A stretch of DNA of 64,000 nt from Tomocerus qinae (Eukaryota > Arthropoda > Collembola > Entomobryomorpha > Tomoceridae). Under the pieces are notes generated by a model, which was given only the letters and a program-made list of their open reading frames with translations, was not told the origin of the DNA and did not search any database. The translations under genes and the position numbers were made by a program. The stretch's first letter is position 1. Each line of letters begins with the position of its first letter. Positions 12,301 to 52,924 of the stretch are shown in pieces. The stretch spans positions 122,967,875 through 123,031,874 of the forward strand of contig CM034546.1 in the NCBI GenBank assembly GCA_020055645.1, written 5' to 3'.

Positions 12301-14892
12301 TATGGCAATAGAATGATTCAGTAGGTGCTGTATATATGTGGTAAAACAAGAGAGTATAGTGAAAGATTGTGTAAAGTGAGACTGAGAGTAGGGAGATGTG
12401 GGTAATAGCTGGAGGAGAAAGTGGAGAGAAAGGACGCAACTGAATAACGATAGCTTATCGTTAACAAGGAAGAGTAGGGAGATGAGAGAAGGGAGTCAAT
12501 GGCATTTACCTCGGGCACGTTCCTTCATTTCCAACTCGTTGCTACTCATAGATTCATAGATGCATGCATGCGTTCACAACTTAAACTCATCCCGTCTCCT
12601 CCTGACTCAGTCACTGACTGGAGAGAGATAGATAGAATGACTTAGGTGCACTCTCAGCTCACTGCAGTTTAGAGTCATGAGACAAACATGCACTACTTGT
12701 GCCAAACGACAGCCTCTCAACTCCAGCACTCTACCAACTACTATATCTACAATGTTGTCTCTCACCTTAAATACTCGACTGAAATAACATTTCACATACA
12801 ACATTCATGTCTCTGCTATTCCTTCAAGGTACTTACACTTTCAATCTGTAGTAGACAAGCCATTGCACTTGTATATACGTTATATTATTCAAAAGAGGAA
12901 AATGCAGTTTAACTTTGGTGTGTAATGAGTATAAAAAGATGGTGAATGGATGAGTAGACTATTAAGCGGAGAGAAAGCAAGTGAAAGCTCCAGTGCACGA
13001 ACTGTGTGAAGAAAAGTGTCTGTTGCAATTCATCGTCAGCATAAGACATTCTCGACAATAGGAAGTCAACAGCAGATTTCCAGTTACGTAACACGGTAAC
13101 TGTTTAAAAGATTCAATGATGCAATACCTTCCTTCAATGCATCCAATTCCCTACACCAGTTCACATAAGACCTATCTATAATACTATTAAGTATCTATCT
13201 ACTTATACCAAAAGTACTATAAGTATTAGACATGCCCGCATTAAGTGCAGTAAAGACAAGTAGTGAATTTTAGTCCGGATAGGTATTCAATCTTATCTAC
13301 TTGTGGAAGGAATGTGGTCAGATCTGGTTTCGTCGTAGTTGGTAAGAATACATAACATATTATATAAATATACTATTATTATTTTACTTGGTATTAAGTA
13401 TATATGTATATAGTACTATATAGTATTGTATCTGTCGAGAGTGTGTCGGAAGCATTCTATGCATTTGTGATGAAGTGAGCCGAGTTTCTCTGTCGAATAC
13501 TTTCCCGCATAAATAGCCTAAAGTTCCTTCTCGGAGATTGTCAAGTGTGACCGTGGTTTGGTCTGATCTCGTGTGGTTCGGCTTCCCTTCTCTTCTGACA
13601 AGACAACCTAATGACATTTCCTGGGTGATGAGGAAGTGAGAGCAAATGTGCTCTCTTTGACATCCAGACTTGCCTGCCTGCCTGCCTTCCCTTATTTCTT
13701 TGCCTTGTCGACCGAGAGATTTAAGTGCATCAATTGACAGTTGAAACAGATGGGAAATGCTGCCTCCTTCCCCCAACTGCCTTTCACCCAACTCTATACT
13801 TTTCTCCGTCACACACTTTCTCTCGTTTTACTCTATAACTTTCTCCTACCTAGTATACTTACTTTCGCATGCCGATCATTATGTGTGTAATGTATAGTTA
13901 TATACATATCTGCATTTAGTGGCTCTCCGCAGAAAAGAAACTTCACAAACGTTTATATACTTTTGTCCCTCTGAATTTGCTTTCTCCGTCCTGCCTTGCC
14001 TTTCCTATGTAGCACAACGGATGCTTACTTCATTTTTTGTTCAAATTGCCAGTTGGCCTAAGCGGAAGTCAATGCTTTTCTTCAGGATGCCACCTTTAGG
14101 GTGCAAGCGGCTGTGGCGTCTCGCTTCACTTATCTTTCTCACAATGTGAACCCTTCGCATGATTGGATTTACGGTTATGGATATTGATTGACTTCTGTCA
14201 CTTCAACATCTACCCACCAACATCAGACTACCATATTCACAATATTATTACTGCTATTAACAGTCTTACCCAACTACTGTGCTTGTGCTATTGCTAATAG
14301 TAGTATCTAGGATCATCTGTGATCTATTTGAAAAATCAATAAATTAAAAATGATATGCATTGCAATAGTAAATTCATGAAGTATCAATTTTTGACCCTGT
14401 ACAGCGTATGTAACTTGCAGTGAAAGTGGAATGGTGAAATGGAGAAAATTCTCCTTTGGGAGTTTATTTCAATTCTGCATTGTCCTATCATTAATCATGT
14501 TACCCTGCACCCAAGACATGTGTGAGTTTTCATGCATAAAATTGTAAATACACCTAGTTCTACAAGAAACGCTTCACTGTGCAAATATTCAAGCGATATA
14601 GTATTTGATAATGGTGGAGGGATTCATGGCATTTGTGCATGATGGCAGCGGATTGATTACACGGCAAGATTGACATGGAGTGATGTAACAAACAAAATCT
14701 TGAAGGGTGACTGCAAGTCAACAAAATTGTAGCAGCATATAGGTTGCATGGGTATACACTTTTAGGACATCTTTGAAGCAAAAAATAGATGTAAAATGGA
14801 ATATTATAGAATTATCTTGCGCACAACTAAAGGTCTTAACAATAATGCTCCAAATCGGGGTTCGGGAGTCTTACCCCTGTTGCCCTCAATTT
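9332..14892. other. No gene recognised
   Basis: Contains the 20-bp palindrome at 9660 and many GAGAGA/TCTCTC runs (for example near 11,040-11,100 and 12,360-12,490). A 142-codon reverse frame at 13384-13812 is the longest non-repeat frame in this stretch. Its product is Arg/Gln/Gly-rich without a recognisable domain or splice context, so I do not call it a gene. Confidence 0.55.
9660..9679. other. Perfect 20-bp palindrome
   Basis: AATTTGATTCGAATCAAATT is self-complementary over its full length and is followed 4 bp later by TTTGATCAAA, a second palindrome. Confidence 0.75.
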
Positions 14893-15575
14893 GGACCAAT
14901 TTAACACAACTGAAACCAAACTTGAACAATTTAGACGAATTTAAACTAATTTAGATGAACTTTGAACAATTTAGACGGACTTTGGACAATTTAGGCGGGC
15001 TTTGAACAATTTAGACGAACGTTGAACAATTTAGGCGAACTTTGAACAATTTAGACAAACTTTGAACAATTTAGACGAACGAACTTTAAACAATTTAGAC
15101 AAGCGATCTTTGAACAATTTAGACGAACGAACTTTGAACAATTTAGACAAACGATCTTTGAACAATTTAGACGAACGAACTTTGAACAATTTAGATGAAC
15201 GAACTTTGAACAATTTAGATGAACGAACTTGAACAATTTAGACGAACTTTGAACAATTTAGACGAACGTTGAACAATTTAGGCGAACTTTGAACAATTTA
15301 GACAAACGATCTTTGAACAATTTAGACGAACGAACTTTAAACAATTTAGACGAGTGAACATTAAACAATGTAGACGAACATTAAACAATTTAGACGAACA
15401 TTAAACAATTTAGACGAACATTAAACAATGTAGACGAACATTAAACAATTTAGACGAACATTAAACAATTTAGACGAACTTTAAACAATTTAGACGAATT
15501 TTAAACAATTTAGACGAACTTTAAACAATTTAAACGCACAATGAACAATTTAGACGAACTTAGACAAACCTTATA
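14893..15575. repeat. Minisatellite, about 20-bp unit
   Basis: About 30 tandem copies of GAACAATTTAGACGAACTTT. Variants include a 23-24-bp GAACGAAC form (15,075-15,235) and a TTAAACAATTTAGACGAACA form (15,350-15,530). The varying period keeps some reverse-strand frames open, which I do not regard as coding. Confidence 0.93.
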
Positions 15576-16764: not shown

Positions 16765-17345
16765 GACAAAAAAGGTAAAAGTACTCCTTTTTCTAAAAAA
16801 AGCAGTCCTTTTTACCTTTTTTACTTTATTTACTTATAAAGTAGAAGTAAATGGGGCACGCTGCTACATCAAAAATAGGTAAAAAGGAAAAAAAGGACTG
16901 CTTTTTAAAAATTTTAATTATCCTACCGTTTTTATAAAAAAGGCATAAAAGGTTAAAGTACTACTTTTTCAAAAAAGCAGCCCTTTTTACCTTTTTTACT
17001 TTATTTACTTAAAGTAGAAGTAAATGGGGCACGTTGTTGCATAAAAAATAGGTAAAAAGGAAAAAAGGACTGCTTTAAACAAATTTTTATCATCCTGCCG
17101 TTTTTATAAGAAAGGCAAAAAAGGTAAAAGTACTACTTTTTCTAAAAAAGCAGTCCTTTTTACCATTTTTACTTTATTTACTTAAAGTAGAAGTAAATGG
17201 GGCACGTTGTTACATAAAAAAATAGGTAAAAAGGAAAAAAGGACTGCTTTAAAAAAATTTTTATTATCCTACCGTTTTTATAAGAAAGGCAAAAAAGGTA
17301 AAAGTACTACTTTTTCTAAAAAAGCAGTCCTTTTTACCTTTTTTA
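16765..17345. repeat. 180-bp tandem repeat inside the hAT-like element
   Basis: The repeating core is AAAGTACTACTTTTTCTAAA, then GCAGTCCTTTTTACC, then AAGTAGAAGTAAATGGGGCA, then AGGACTGCTTT and TATCCTACCGTTTTTATAA. The unit recurs at about 16,760, 16,940, 17,115 and 17,290 (partial). The related single-copy element at 22,569 has one such unit, so the array is a local expansion. Confidence 0.85.
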
Positions 17346-17580
17346 CAAGGACGCATTTAGGGATGGGCTTTACGGGCTGAAGCCCCCCCCCCCAAAATCC
17401 AAGACAAAGGGAATTTTTTTCTCAAAATAGCAAAAAATTTTGCCCTTTTTAGGCTATTTTTGACTCATTTTCTTCAAAAAATGCCAAAAATTTTCGCGCT
17501 AAGCGCGCATATATATACTTAAACTATCTATTGGAAATCTAGCCCCCTCCGAAACTCAGTTCTGCATACGTGCATGCTTT
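17346..17580. mobile_element. Insertion of a dispersed repeat, possibly a degenerate transposon
   Basis: It interrupts the 180-bp unit between TTTTTTAC and the continuation TTTTTTACC. It contains a C11 homopolymer near 17,383, a TTTTTTTCTCAAAATA segment shared with 63,500, and a GCGCTAAGCGCG hairpin. The ends (AAGGACGCATTTAGGG; CTGCATACGTGCATGC) are only weakly complementary. The class is not determined. Confidence 0.6.
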
Positions 17581-31700: not shown

Positions 31701-31789
31701 TCATACTACATCTGTGGGTATTTCATGTGCAGTAGGTTCAGCGTCACATTCAGCCAAATCTATTCTACAGACCTAGGATGCTGAATGAA
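22795..31789. other. No gene recognised (longest featureless part of the desert)
   Basis: Nine kilobases with almost no transposon sequence apart from the 42-bp direct repeat at 25.4 kb. Overlapping frames of 100-128 codons (26054-26389, 27570-27902, 29534-29920, all reverse; 27867-28181 forward) show no recognisable domains. Polypurine/polypyrimidine runs and TACTACTA-type simple motifs are frequent. Confidence 0.55.
25364..25471. repeat. 42-bp direct repeat, 66 bp apart
   Basis: TTTTGATTGATCAGCTG...ATTAATTGG.CTGGGACAAT occurs at 25364-25405 and 25430-25471 with about three differences. Each copy holds adjacent TGATCA and CAGCTG palindromes. Confidence 0.8.
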
Positions 31790-32130
31790 AATCAAGGTAA
31801 AATGTGATAATTTTCAAGAAAATCAAGGTAAAATGTGATAATATTCAAGATAATCAAGGTAAAATGTGATAATCTTCAAGGAAATCAAGGTAAAATGTGA
31901 TAATCTTCAGGAAAATCAAGGTAAAATGTGATAATTTTCAAGAAATTCAAGGTAAAATGTGATAATCTTAAGAAAATCAAGGTAAAATGTGATAATCTTC
32001 AAGAAAATCAAGGTAAAATGTGATAATCTTCAAGAAAATCAAGGTAAAATGTGATAATCTCCAAAAAAATCAAGGTAAAATGTGATAATCTTCAGGAAAT
32101 GAAGGTAAAATGTGTTAATCTCCAAGAAAT
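31790..32130. repeat. Minisatellite, about 31-bp unit
   Basis: About 11 tandem copies with core ATCAAGGTAAAATGTGATAA followed by a variable TTTTCAAGAAA-type linker. Copies are 90% or more alike by eye. The last copies decay (GAAGGTAAAATGTGTTAA). Confidence 0.93.
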
Positions 32131-46509: not shown

Positions 46510-46613
46510 TACATATTAATCCAGTTTCCAGATCCCCATTCACCGCTTGTCCAGCCACTAAAACATGCGCCACGAGAAATTCCTCACTAAATCCATGTGG
46601 CTTGAGCTATAGA

Positions 46614-47497
46614 GGGTAAATCCAGCTAGCCGAATCCGAAGGTCCAGCTAGCCGAAGCCGAAGGTCCAGCTAGCCGAAGCCGAAGGATAACATCCGAAGC
46701 CGAAGGTCCAGGTAGCCGAAGCCGAAGGTACAGCTAGCCGAATCCGAAGGTCCAGGTAGCCGAAGCCGAAGGTACCAGCTAGCCGAAGCCGAAGAATGTA
46801 CCAGGTAGCCGAAGTTCCGAAGGTCCAGCTAGCCGAAATCAGAAGGTCCAGCTTGCCGAAGCCGAAGTACCAGCTAGCCGACTCGAAGGTCCCGCTACCC
46901 GAAGCCGAAGGGATAAGTGAATCTACCCGAAGCCGAAGGTCCCGCTACCCGAAGCCGAAGGAATAAGTGAATCTACCCGAAGCCGAAGGTCCAGCTACCC
47001 GAAGCCGAAGGTCCCGCTACCCGAAGCCGAAGGTCCCGCTACCCGAAGCCGAAGGTCCCGCTACCCGAAGCCGAAGGTCCAGCTACCCGAAGCCGAAGGT
47101 CCAGCTACCCGAAGCCGAAGGTCCCGCTACCCGAAGCCGAAGGTCCCGCTACCCGAAGTCGAAGGTCCAGCTACCCGAAGCCGAAGGTCCAGCTACCCGA
47201 AGCCGAAGGTCCAGCTACCCGAAGCCGAAGGTCCAGCTACCCGAAGCCGAAGGTCCAGCTACCCGAAGCCGAAGGTTCAGCTACCCGAAGCCGAAGTACC
47301 AGCTACCCGAAGCCGAAGTACCAGCTACCCGAAGCCGACAGAATAGATCTATCTTCCTGAAGCCGAAGCGGAAATACTAGCTACCCGAACCCGAAGGTCC
47401 AGCTAGCCGAAGCCGAAGGTACCAGCTAGCCGAAATCAGAAGGTCAAGCTAGCCGAAGCCGAAGGTACCAGCTAGCCGAAATCAGAAGGTCAAGCTA
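46614..47497 (+). repeat. Left arm: 22-bp tandem array
   Basis: Consensus unit is CCGAAGCCGAAGGTCCCGCTAC. Outer units to about 46880 carry AGCTAGCC and varied spacers (for example an AATGTACC insertion near 46795 and ATAACATCC near 46685). Inner units from about 46,880 to 47,330 are nearly identical CCCGCTACC/CCAGCTACC types, which looks like recent homogenisation. Two copies of a GGATAAGTGAATCTACC variant lie at about 46910-46980. Confidence 0.9.
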
Positions 47498-48026
47498 GTC
47501 AATCTGTGAGCATGTTCCTCCAACCCTGGGTAATAATAGATTTAAAAAGAAGTTTTTTTGCAAATGTCAACGCAGAGTATCCCACAAAAACTTTAAACTC
47601 TAAAGTTGTAGGCAATAATCTCAGATAACTGAAACTTGTGGCCCAATCTGCATTGATTTTAAGAAAACTGACTTTTAAAATTCCACCTTTTAAAAATTTG
47701 AAATTCAAAAAGTGTTATTCAATAATCTGGAACAGTCAATAATTACGTTGTATAATTTCCAATCTAGTTTAGGAGATTTAATGACTGCAAAAATGGTAAC
47801 TTTAAACCCCAATTAAAGGGTGTTATCTAATTTTCAAATATAAATAATGTACAGATTTTCGGTAAAATGTGGAAATTATGTTACTGCAGTTTTTTATGAC
47901 TATTGAAAGGGCGAATCTAACAAAGCCTAGTCGCCTTATTCAGCCGAGCTAAAAATGAATACATAGTAGTTTGGTACGTAATAGATTAAGTACTTGATGC
48001 AGTTTAGTTTTATGTATCCTTTGGGC

Positions 48027-49000
48027 AGCTGGTACTTCGGCTAGCTGGACCTTCGGCTTCGGGTAGCTGGACCTTCGGCTTCGGGTAGCGGGACCTTCGG
48101 CTTCGGGTAGCGGGACCTTCGGCTTCGGGTAGCGGGACCTTCGGCTTCGGGTAGCGGGACCTTCGGCTTCGGGTAGCGGGACCTTCGGCTTCGGGTAGCG
48201 GGACCTTCGGCTTCGGGTAGCGGGACCTTCGGCTTCGGGTAGCGGGACCTTCGGCTTCGGGTAGCGGGACCTTCGGCTTCGGGTAGCGGGACCTTCGGCT
48301 TCGGGTAGCGGGACCTTCGGCTTCGGGTAGCGGGACCTTCGGCTTCGGGTAGCGGGACCTTCGGCTTCGGGTAGCGGGACCTTCGGCTTCGGGTAGCGGG
48401 ACCTTCGGCTTCGGGTAGCGGGACCTTCGGCTTCGGGTAGCTGGACCCTCGGCTTTGGGTGTCATCCTTCGGCTTCGGGTAGCGGGACCTTCGGCTTCGG
48501 GTAGCTGGACCTTCTGCTTTGGGTGTCATCCTTCGGCTTCGGGTAGCGGGACCTTCGGCTTCGGGTAGCTGGACCCTCGGCTTTGGGTGTCATCCTTCGG
48601 CTTCGGGTAGCGGGACCTTCGGCTTCGGGTAGCTGGACCTTCTGCTTTGGGTGTCATCCTTCGGCTTCGGGTAGCGGGACCTTCGGCTTCGGGTAGCTGG
48701 ACCTTCTGATTTCGGGTAGCGGGACCTTCGAGTCGGCTAGCTGGTACTTCGGCTTCGGCTAGCTGGACCTTCTGATTTCGGCTAGCTGGACCTTCGGAGC
48801 TTCGGCTACCTGGTACATTCTTCGGCTTCGGCTAGCTGGTACCTTCGGCTTCGGCTATCTGGACCTTCGGATTCGGCTAGCTGGACCTTCGGCTTCGGCT
48901 ACCTGGACCTTCGGCTTCGGGTGTCATCCTTCGGCTTCGGCTAGCTGGACCTTCGGCTTCGGCTAGCTGGACCTTCGGATTCGGCTAGCTGGATTTACCC
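48027..49000 (-). repeat. Right arm: inverted 22-bp tandem array
   Basis: This is the reverse complement of the left arm unit. About 18 nearly identical units run from 48,060 to 48,440. A higher-order repeat follows (48,440-48,700) with a GGGTGTCATCC segment recurring about every 66 to 100 bp. The outer 270 bp mirrors the variant order of the left arm, including GTACATTC near 48,815 and CTTCTGATTTCGG near 48,770. Confidence 0.9.
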
Positions 49001-49009
49001 AGCTATAGA

Positions 49010-51931: not shown

Positions 51932-52924
51932 TATATGTCGTAGACTGGGAGGGAAAGGTGACTGGGAGGGATATAATGTCCCTCTCCGTCTAGACTGGGA
52001 GGGATAGCTCTGTACCGCTAGCGGTACCGAACCATGAGGTTTCCGACTGGGAGGGATAGGTTGTAAAGGATTGATATGAATGATTCTACGTGTATAAGTG
52101 CCACAACTATCGCAGATTTTAGATTACTCTTACATGTTTTATTCACTGTAATCATTATTTTCTATAATATTCATAAATGTTAAGTATATTGCATTCTTTG
52201 TATGTCATAATTAAATTATAATTTATTACTATCGCAGATTTTAGGTTACTCTTACATTTTTTATTTATTGTAATCCTTATTTTCAATAATATTATTAAAT
52301 ATTAATTATAATATTGGACTTTTTGTATCAGTCATAATTAAATCATAATTTATTAAGTCAAGATTGGAATTCAAATGGTTAAGTATGTTACACTGCTATG
52401 CTACGTTTTTTGGCAGTAAAGTAAGTCTAAGAGCGTGTGGAAGTATCACTTTCAGCAAGGTTTACATTTACTATGAAGAGCTATAAGCTGAATTACATAG
52501 AGGTTGCTGTTTTGTGGGAAGTTAGGGAAGTGAGTTTCATTTAAATTTACTTTTTCAATAAGACAAAATGGAATTTCCGTAATAGCAGCGTAATCTACTT
52601 TACCATTTGACTGTCAATCTGGACTTAATAATTTATGATTTAATTATCACTGATACAAAAAGGGCAATATACTGAATATTTATAAATATTATAGAAAATA
52701 ATGATTACAATGAATAAAACATGTAAGAGTAACCTAAAATCTGCGATAGTTGTGGCACTTATACACATAGAATCATTCATATCAATCCTTTACAACCTAT
52801 CCCTCCCAGTCGGAAACCTCATGGTTCGGTACCGCTAGCGGTACAGAGCTATCCCACCCAGTCTAGACGGAGAGGGACATTATATCCCTCCCAGTCACCT
52901 TTCCCTCCCAGTCTACGACATATA
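51932..52924. mobile_element. 1-kb palindromic (foldback) element with GACTGGGAGGGA subterminal repeats
   Basis: The ends are TATATGTCGTAGACTGGG and its reverse complement. The arms stay complementary almost to the centre, with a loop near 52,480-52,560. Each arm carries four GACTGGGAGGGA-type motifs within about 120 bp of its end and a perfect 16-bp palindrome GTACCGCTAGCGGTAC (52012-52027 and 52829-52844). The left arm has an extra internal direct duplication (a CTATCGCAGATTTTAG block at about 52109 and 52227), so the arms differ in length. No convincing target duplication was found and no coding sequence lies inside. It sits between the 3' ends of the KMT5-like and EDRF1-like genes. Confidence 0.82.

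Follow-up and report, generated by a model that had tools for sequence, protein, structure and literature searches.

Within the 64,000-nucleotide stretch of the Tomocerus qinae genome that we analyzed (the window), an element of 2,387 bp at positions 46614–49000 is a copy of a foldback-type transposon that has been recently mobile. The family to which it belongs consists of non-autonomous DNA transposons, as is evident from its defined ends, its target duplications, its dispersal, an empty site, and the fact that no transposase was found in any of the copies read. Our overall reading, to which we assign a probability of roughly 0.78, is that of a non-autonomous foldback element, probably of the Mutator class, which is moved in trans and in which the ~22-bp units of the arms probably act as sites for the transposase.

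The element terminates in GGGTAAATCC...GGATTTACCC, and re-reading of the sequence bore out the extent, the coordinates, the letters, and the 0.5-kb loop (534 bp) reported in the first-pass annotation, together with the exact 9-bp duplication AGCTATAGA on its two flanks (Table 1). TRF detected a 22-bp array of 38.4 copies at 46621–47497 in the left arm and one of 43.7 copies at 48035–48993 in the right arm, and the autocorrelation at 22 was far above that of shuffles in both arms. The arrays are of the unit type AGCTAGCCGAAGCCGAAGG, and the commonest units in this copy are TCCAGCTACCCGAAGCCGAAGG and TCCCGCTACCCGAAGCCGAAGG. An alignment of the two arms with each other shows identity at 810 of 855 positions (94.7%). 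The complementary ends had been described as identical, which is true of the first bases, whereas farther in they are near-identical, with 98% complementarity over the outermost 290 nt. Likewise, the arms had been said to be made wholly of 22-bp repeats; they consist mostly of such units in opposite orientation, but some spacings are off register. The loop has no open frame of at least 150 aa except one that enters it from the arm repeats, and an Rfam scan of the window returned no match at gathering scores.

Table 1. Parts of the foldback element and its flanking duplications (positions in the window).
Feature	Position	Strand	Basis
Left 9-bp target duplication, AGCTATAGA	46605–46613		Letters read directly
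Left arm, 883 bp, tandem ~22-bp units	46614–47496	+	TRF and arm alignment
Outer ~190 bp of left arm, putative transposase-recognition end	46614–46805	+	Identity to other copies
Loop, 534 bp	47497–48030		Genome matches and open-frame check
Right arm, 970 bp, left-arm units in opposite orientation	48031–49000	-	TRF and arm alignment
Outer ~190 bp of right arm	48809–49000	-	98% identity with the left arm over the outer 200 bp
Right 9-bp target duplication, AGCTATAGA	49001–49009		Letters read directly

The element is one of many in the genome. In the 334-Mb assembly (115 contigs), the exact 20-nt end GGGTAAATCCAGCTAGCCGA was matched 115 times (52 + 63), and 194 times (92 + 102) when up to three mismatches were allowed, while the reversed control gave 0 matches in each case. 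These counts suggest that the family numbers about a hundred copies, including partial ones, and dispose of the possibility that the genome holds no other copy. The outer ~190 bp is 94–99% identical in 39 other top matches (the best-scoring ones), which lie on both strands, and the loop is matched at no fewer than 40 places in the genome (40 of the 77 candidates scored). Forty-four loci were examined: besides the window element, these were 40 copies retrieved from the assembly and three candidates whose ends lie far apart (L059, L060, and L062). Both ends were present in 42 of these loci, and L015 and L048 have one end only.

Exact target duplications flank 36 of the 42 two-ended copies, 22 being 9 bp long and 14 being 10 bp long; other copies with 9-bp duplications, which the first-pass annotation had proposed to look for, are among them. 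The duplications of the remaining six are inexact by one base (L039, L049, L059, and L060), two bases (L050+L061), or four bases (L046). Because L055 and L056 have the same flanking sequence, representing one insertion seen twice, the number of independent exact duplications is 35. When left and right flanks were cross-paired between copies, none of the 1,722 pairings had a duplicate of at least 7 bp, against 36 of 42 for a copy's own flanks; together with the 115 matches of the 20-nt end against none for its reverse, this excludes a chance origin. At the 22 sites with a 9-bp duplication, A or T occupies 60 of the 66 cells at bases 4–6, which amounts to a weak target preference. An empty site, such as the first-pass annotation had proposed to look for, was found as well. 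The repeat into which L039 inserted is dispersed in the genome, and its copies in L059 and L044 are uninterrupted and contain the target TACATCACCA once and no element; these are paralogous copies of the repeat, not the same site in other individuals. The foldback architecture and the mobility of the element are thus both borne out, the family having the traits of the foldback class, namely long inverted arms of tandem repeats, a short and variable middle, and mobility with target duplications.

Two irregular arrangements of family ends were also observed. At L046, an apparent second family end lies in the left flank (1428–1445), 7 bp outside the element. On contig C1, three exact right-hand ends at 62167507, 62176990, and 62186472 are separated by 9,483 and 9,482 bp, probably as a result of tandem segmental duplication of a segment that carries one end.

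The arms of the family change fast. Spacings and lengths were determined in 37 copies, after exclusion of L029, L050, L059, L060, and L062, which are interrupted or unusual. Of 1,435 distances between repeat anchors, 880 measure 22 or 23 bp, and among the 25 commonest spacings at least 329 further cases fall near multiples (21, 42–46, 64–69, 86–89, and 108–109 bp). Spacings of 28, 50, 16, and 14 bp, which are off register with ~22 bp, also occur, and the 28-, 50-, and 16-bp spacings mean that strict helical phasing within the family arms is not clean. Arm lengths range from 244 to 1,317 bp with a median of 733 bp, and whole elements measure 1,497–2,501 bp. Compared with the loop of the window element, those of L014 and L018 show 99.8% and 99.3% identity, yet the arms of these two copies measure 905/684 bp and 951/817 bp, respectively, against 883/970 bp in the window. 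Such differences in arm length between sister copies with near-identical loops would arise because the inner arrays slip or exchange unequally. The single insertion represented by L055 (C2:13500–19100) and L056 (C12:225000–230600) is found on two contigs; the flanks are identical over 1.2 kb on each side save a 2-bp indel, one arm differs by a 64-bp indel, and the pair probably reflects either a second haplotype that was retained or a duplication of recent date.

We also considered concerted evolution, in which the two arms of one copy would be homogenized, and found it not supported. For the outer 200 bp of 37 copies (here without L046, L050, L059, L060, and L062), the mean pairwise identity is 0.89–0.90, and the identity within a copy (0.908) is barely above that between copies (0.887–0.903). 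In the set of 37 copies without L029, L050, L059, L060, and L062, an arm finds its best match in the other arm of its own copy in 3 cases.

The first-pass annotation had proposed to look for a longer relative whose loop encodes a transposase, and none was found. Among 100 of the 115 exact ends, the distance exceeds 3 kb in three pairs, each of which was read. In L059 (9.3 kb), one frame contains an endonuclease/phosphatase-fold domain (PF03372, E 4e-6), and another contains a reverse transcriptase (PF00078, E 1e-30), the core of which recurs at one other place in the genome with 99% identity and, partially, at a third place with 91%. Another reverse transcriptase and an endonuclease were recognized by eye in L060 (5.3 kb). 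The 660-aa frame of L050+L061 (4.1 kb) matches the reverse transcriptase domain PF00078 weakly (E 0.002, below the curated cut-off) and looks Penelope-like. These three copies, all longer than 4 kb, carry three different reverse-transcriptase elements, which we read as nested insertions, and they were rejected as autonomous copies. When MULE proteins of this genome were compared with the family copies, the hits at E ≤1 were three, one within L042 (E 0.21) and two in sequence flanking L053. None of the 137 places from the MULE searches falls within a listed copy; the closest one lies 4,176 bp from an element and outside it.

We also looked at the MULEs of the same genome. PF10551 (MULE) matches occur at 59 places, 13 of which were read (L031–L038 and L063–L067). 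In nine of the 13, an arm with a period of 21–23 bp adjoins the transposase domain, on both sides in seven (L032, L035, L037, L063, L064, L065, and L066) and on one side in L031 and L034. Because L034/L037 and L035/L063 are same-family pairs, the nine loci represent seven lineages. The arrays are clear in six of the nine (L031, L032, L034, L035, L037, and L063), with units such as AATGACAAAGGTGAACTGTTCC in L035, GGAGATAATATCAAACGTCATT in L037, and CATTGTAATTATCGAGATCAC in L031. Those of L064, L065, and L066 are degenerate, and their period was recognized from autocorrelation and motif spacing rather than from clean repeats; by eye, motifs such as GTCAATG or GTCCCTG recur every ~22 bp in L064 and L065. 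The other four loci have no periodic arms within reach: L036, a FLYWCH-MULE, has neither arms nor a GGGTAAATC end at up to one mismatch even after extension by 1.3 kb in both directions, L067, a MULE-like gene with introns, has no arms in 3 kb, and L033 and L038 have none around the gene, with an unrelated inverted repeat downstream in L038. The MULE transposases fall into two clades whose members do not match each other at E 0.001; one clade has a SWIM finger, which is found downstream in L064 and L066.

Target duplications were also sought at the two-armed MULEs. A first search gave exact 9-bp duplications in three of the seven (L032, L037, and L065) and one of 8 bp in L035. After L064 had been read by eye, the search was widened, which added a 9-bp duplication in L064 (four of seven) and gave none in L063 or L066. 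In random zones of the same size, an exact 9-mer was found in 22 of 3,000 trials, a few being skipped as too close. The outermost bases of the MULEs are asymmetric (for instance, GGAATATATTTAA and GGATGCTATTTAA), a feature shared with Tm1, whereas the window family has GGGTAAATCC at both ends.

The periods of the arms were compared by taking the highest autocorrelation within periods 8–40, with 382 tiles of the window as the background. The top period was 21–23 bp in all 15 MULE arms and in both arms of the window element, and 15 of these 17 arms had z >3. Among the background tiles, 34 of 382 had a top period of 21–23 bp and 2 of 382 also had z >3. The weak arms are the left arm of L064 (p 0.045) and the right arm of L066 (p 0.025), and the result for L031 is circular since its arm was delimited by its own tandem repeat. 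The 15 MULE arms are not independent trials, because they derive from seven lineages and the arms of one element are inverted copies. Moreover, the unit sequences of the MULEs and of the window family look unrelated, so the shared arm design may be convergent.

Taken together, the observations suggest how the family might move and grow. It would transpose by cut-and-paste, with a Mutator-class transposase encoded elsewhere in the genome recognizing the outer ~190 bp and using the ~22-bp units as extra sites; this enzyme would excise the element and reinsert it at a staggered cut of 9–10 bp, and slippage or unequal exchange would make the inner arrays longer or shorter. The MULEs of the same genome, with short inverted arrays of 21–23 bp period beside a transposase gene, are the most likely model of the autonomous form. 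That the units serve as transposase sites we infer from the arms of these MULEs and from published views: in excerpts of the cited papers, the tandem repeats of Galileo are regarded as additional transposase sites (cited in PMC4079207), and cooperative sites are proposed for long MULE ends (PMC13359780). Of the earlier designation as a possible FB/Mutator-type family, the foldback part is confirmed, and the Mutator part is inferred from the 9–10 bp duplications, the G-rich ends, and the MULE arm design. The 9- or 10-bp duplications in 36 of 42 copies are within the 8–11 bp given for the Mutator superfamily in the excerpt of PMC6446971, and the GGG ends agree with the G/C in the first three end bases that is described for most arthropod MULEs in the excerpt of PMC13359780.

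One tentative answer to why long inverted arms made of short tandem repeats arise in some Mutator-class elements, which we consider possible though doubtful, is that in this genome the spacing of the arm repeats is kept at two helical turns (21–23 bp) despite the divergence of units and transposases, the repeats being phased iterons, so that the transposases would align on one face of the DNA. The window family would then be the extreme and non-autonomous case, selected for more sites until the arm is all minisatellite. In one genome, MULE arms of about 3–11 units (by TRF copy number) occur alongside a non-autonomous family whose arms have dozens at near-equal spacing, which makes the idea of repeats as sites directly testable. 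With perhaps a hundred copies in the genome, the long inverted arrays are also likely to be places where rearrangements occur and double-stranded RNA arises.

The source of the transposase could be sought in another group. PF20700 (Mutator-like) domains are present at 121 places in the genome, several with long open frames of up to 1,025 aa, and the place closest to the window family lies 2,314 bp beyond one of its exact ends. Transposases of this type, possibly Rehavkus-like, might move the family in place of the PF10551 MULEs; the link to Rehavkus is a guess. For Rehavkus, 9-bp duplications and a minisatellite before the 3' TIR are described in the excerpt of PMC6446971. We regard this source as rather unlikely. 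The neighboring family end faces away from the transposase, which places the PF20700 gene at L070 outside the family copy, and about 0.13 pairs of a PF20700 place and an end so close are expected by chance, as estimated from match counts. Furthermore, a 500-bp stretch ~0.5 kb downstream of the L070 domain contains a YqaJ-type nuclease frame and lacks 22-bp units. The L070 locus itself (C1:78828423–78830479) consists of the PF20700 domain followed, in another phase, by the YqaJ-type exonuclease frame (PF09588, E 2.5e-12).

A foldback element of a superfamily other than Mutator is improbable. The P superfamily does include a foldback structure, that of Galileo. Target duplications of Galileo and the P superfamily are 7 bp long, against the 9–10 bp in 36 of 42 copies of the window family. 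An assembly artefact or a palindromic minisatellite duplication without any transposon has a negligible chance of being correct: although tandem arrays are error-prone in assembly and some units vary, the architecture recurs at dozens of loci on C1–C5, C7, C10, and C12, with exact duplications that differ from locus to locus, and an empty site exists, so the join between two separate arrays that the first-pass annotation had envisaged is excluded.

Foldback elements with repeat-built arms are already known, among them FB, Tm1, Muta1, and Tetris, and the following comparisons draw on excerpts of the cited papers. Like FB of Drosophila melanogaster, the window element has long inverted arms of tandem repeats in opposite orientation and of variable length, a short middle, and a 9-bp duplication (PMC7642927). 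This likeness is one of architecture. In FB, conserved ends of 467–479 bp flank blocks of 27–31 bp repeats (PMC7642927), whereas the array in the window starts 7 bp from the tip. Tm1, a Mutator/Foldback group of root-knot nematodes, shares the composite inverted arms of tandem units, the duplications (8–10 bp), and a mostly non-autonomous nature (PMC3169594). Its unit is most often 14 bp, with 1–9 units per arm and asymmetric 7-bp outer motifs (PMC3169594); in contrast, the window family has a 22-bp unit, arms of 244–1,317 bp, and the same end on both sides.

Among insects, subterminal tandem repeats are a trait of Muta1 and other MULEs of Aedes aegypti, where they occur in 10 of 12 long-TIR families; there are many non-autonomous derivatives whose repeat numbers vary, and the repeats are 9–15 bp (PMC5225508) compared with 21–23 bp in Tomocerus qinae. 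Tetris of Drosophila virilis is likewise a non-autonomous foldback element with tandem-repeat arms, 8–10 bp duplications, and a partner transposase that was not found, but its ~220-bp repeats sit inside a long outer domain, unlike those of the window family (PMC4079207). Rehavkus and the aphid Phantom are Mutator-related, with 8–10 bp duplications and a minisatellite, which is described on one side (before the 3' TIR and after the transposase ORF) rather than in both arms (PMC6446971); the excerpt of PMC4298943 mentions Rehavkus and leaves its ends undescribed. None of the excerpts on FB/Mutator-type foldback elements describes a 21–23 bp rule for arm repeats. Neither the window family nor the shared period is described in the literature examined, and the family may already stand in Repbase.

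The window contains other repeats. A second inverted-repeat element at 51932–52924 has 272-nt arms that are 96% complementary and separated by 449 nt; the motif GACTGGGAGGGA is repeated near its tips, and no exact flanking duplication of at least 8 bp was found. Further tandem arrays lie at 14887–15561 (20 bp), 31787–32129 (31 bp), and 16767–17346 (174 bp), and part of the last resembles the flank of the MULE locus L032.
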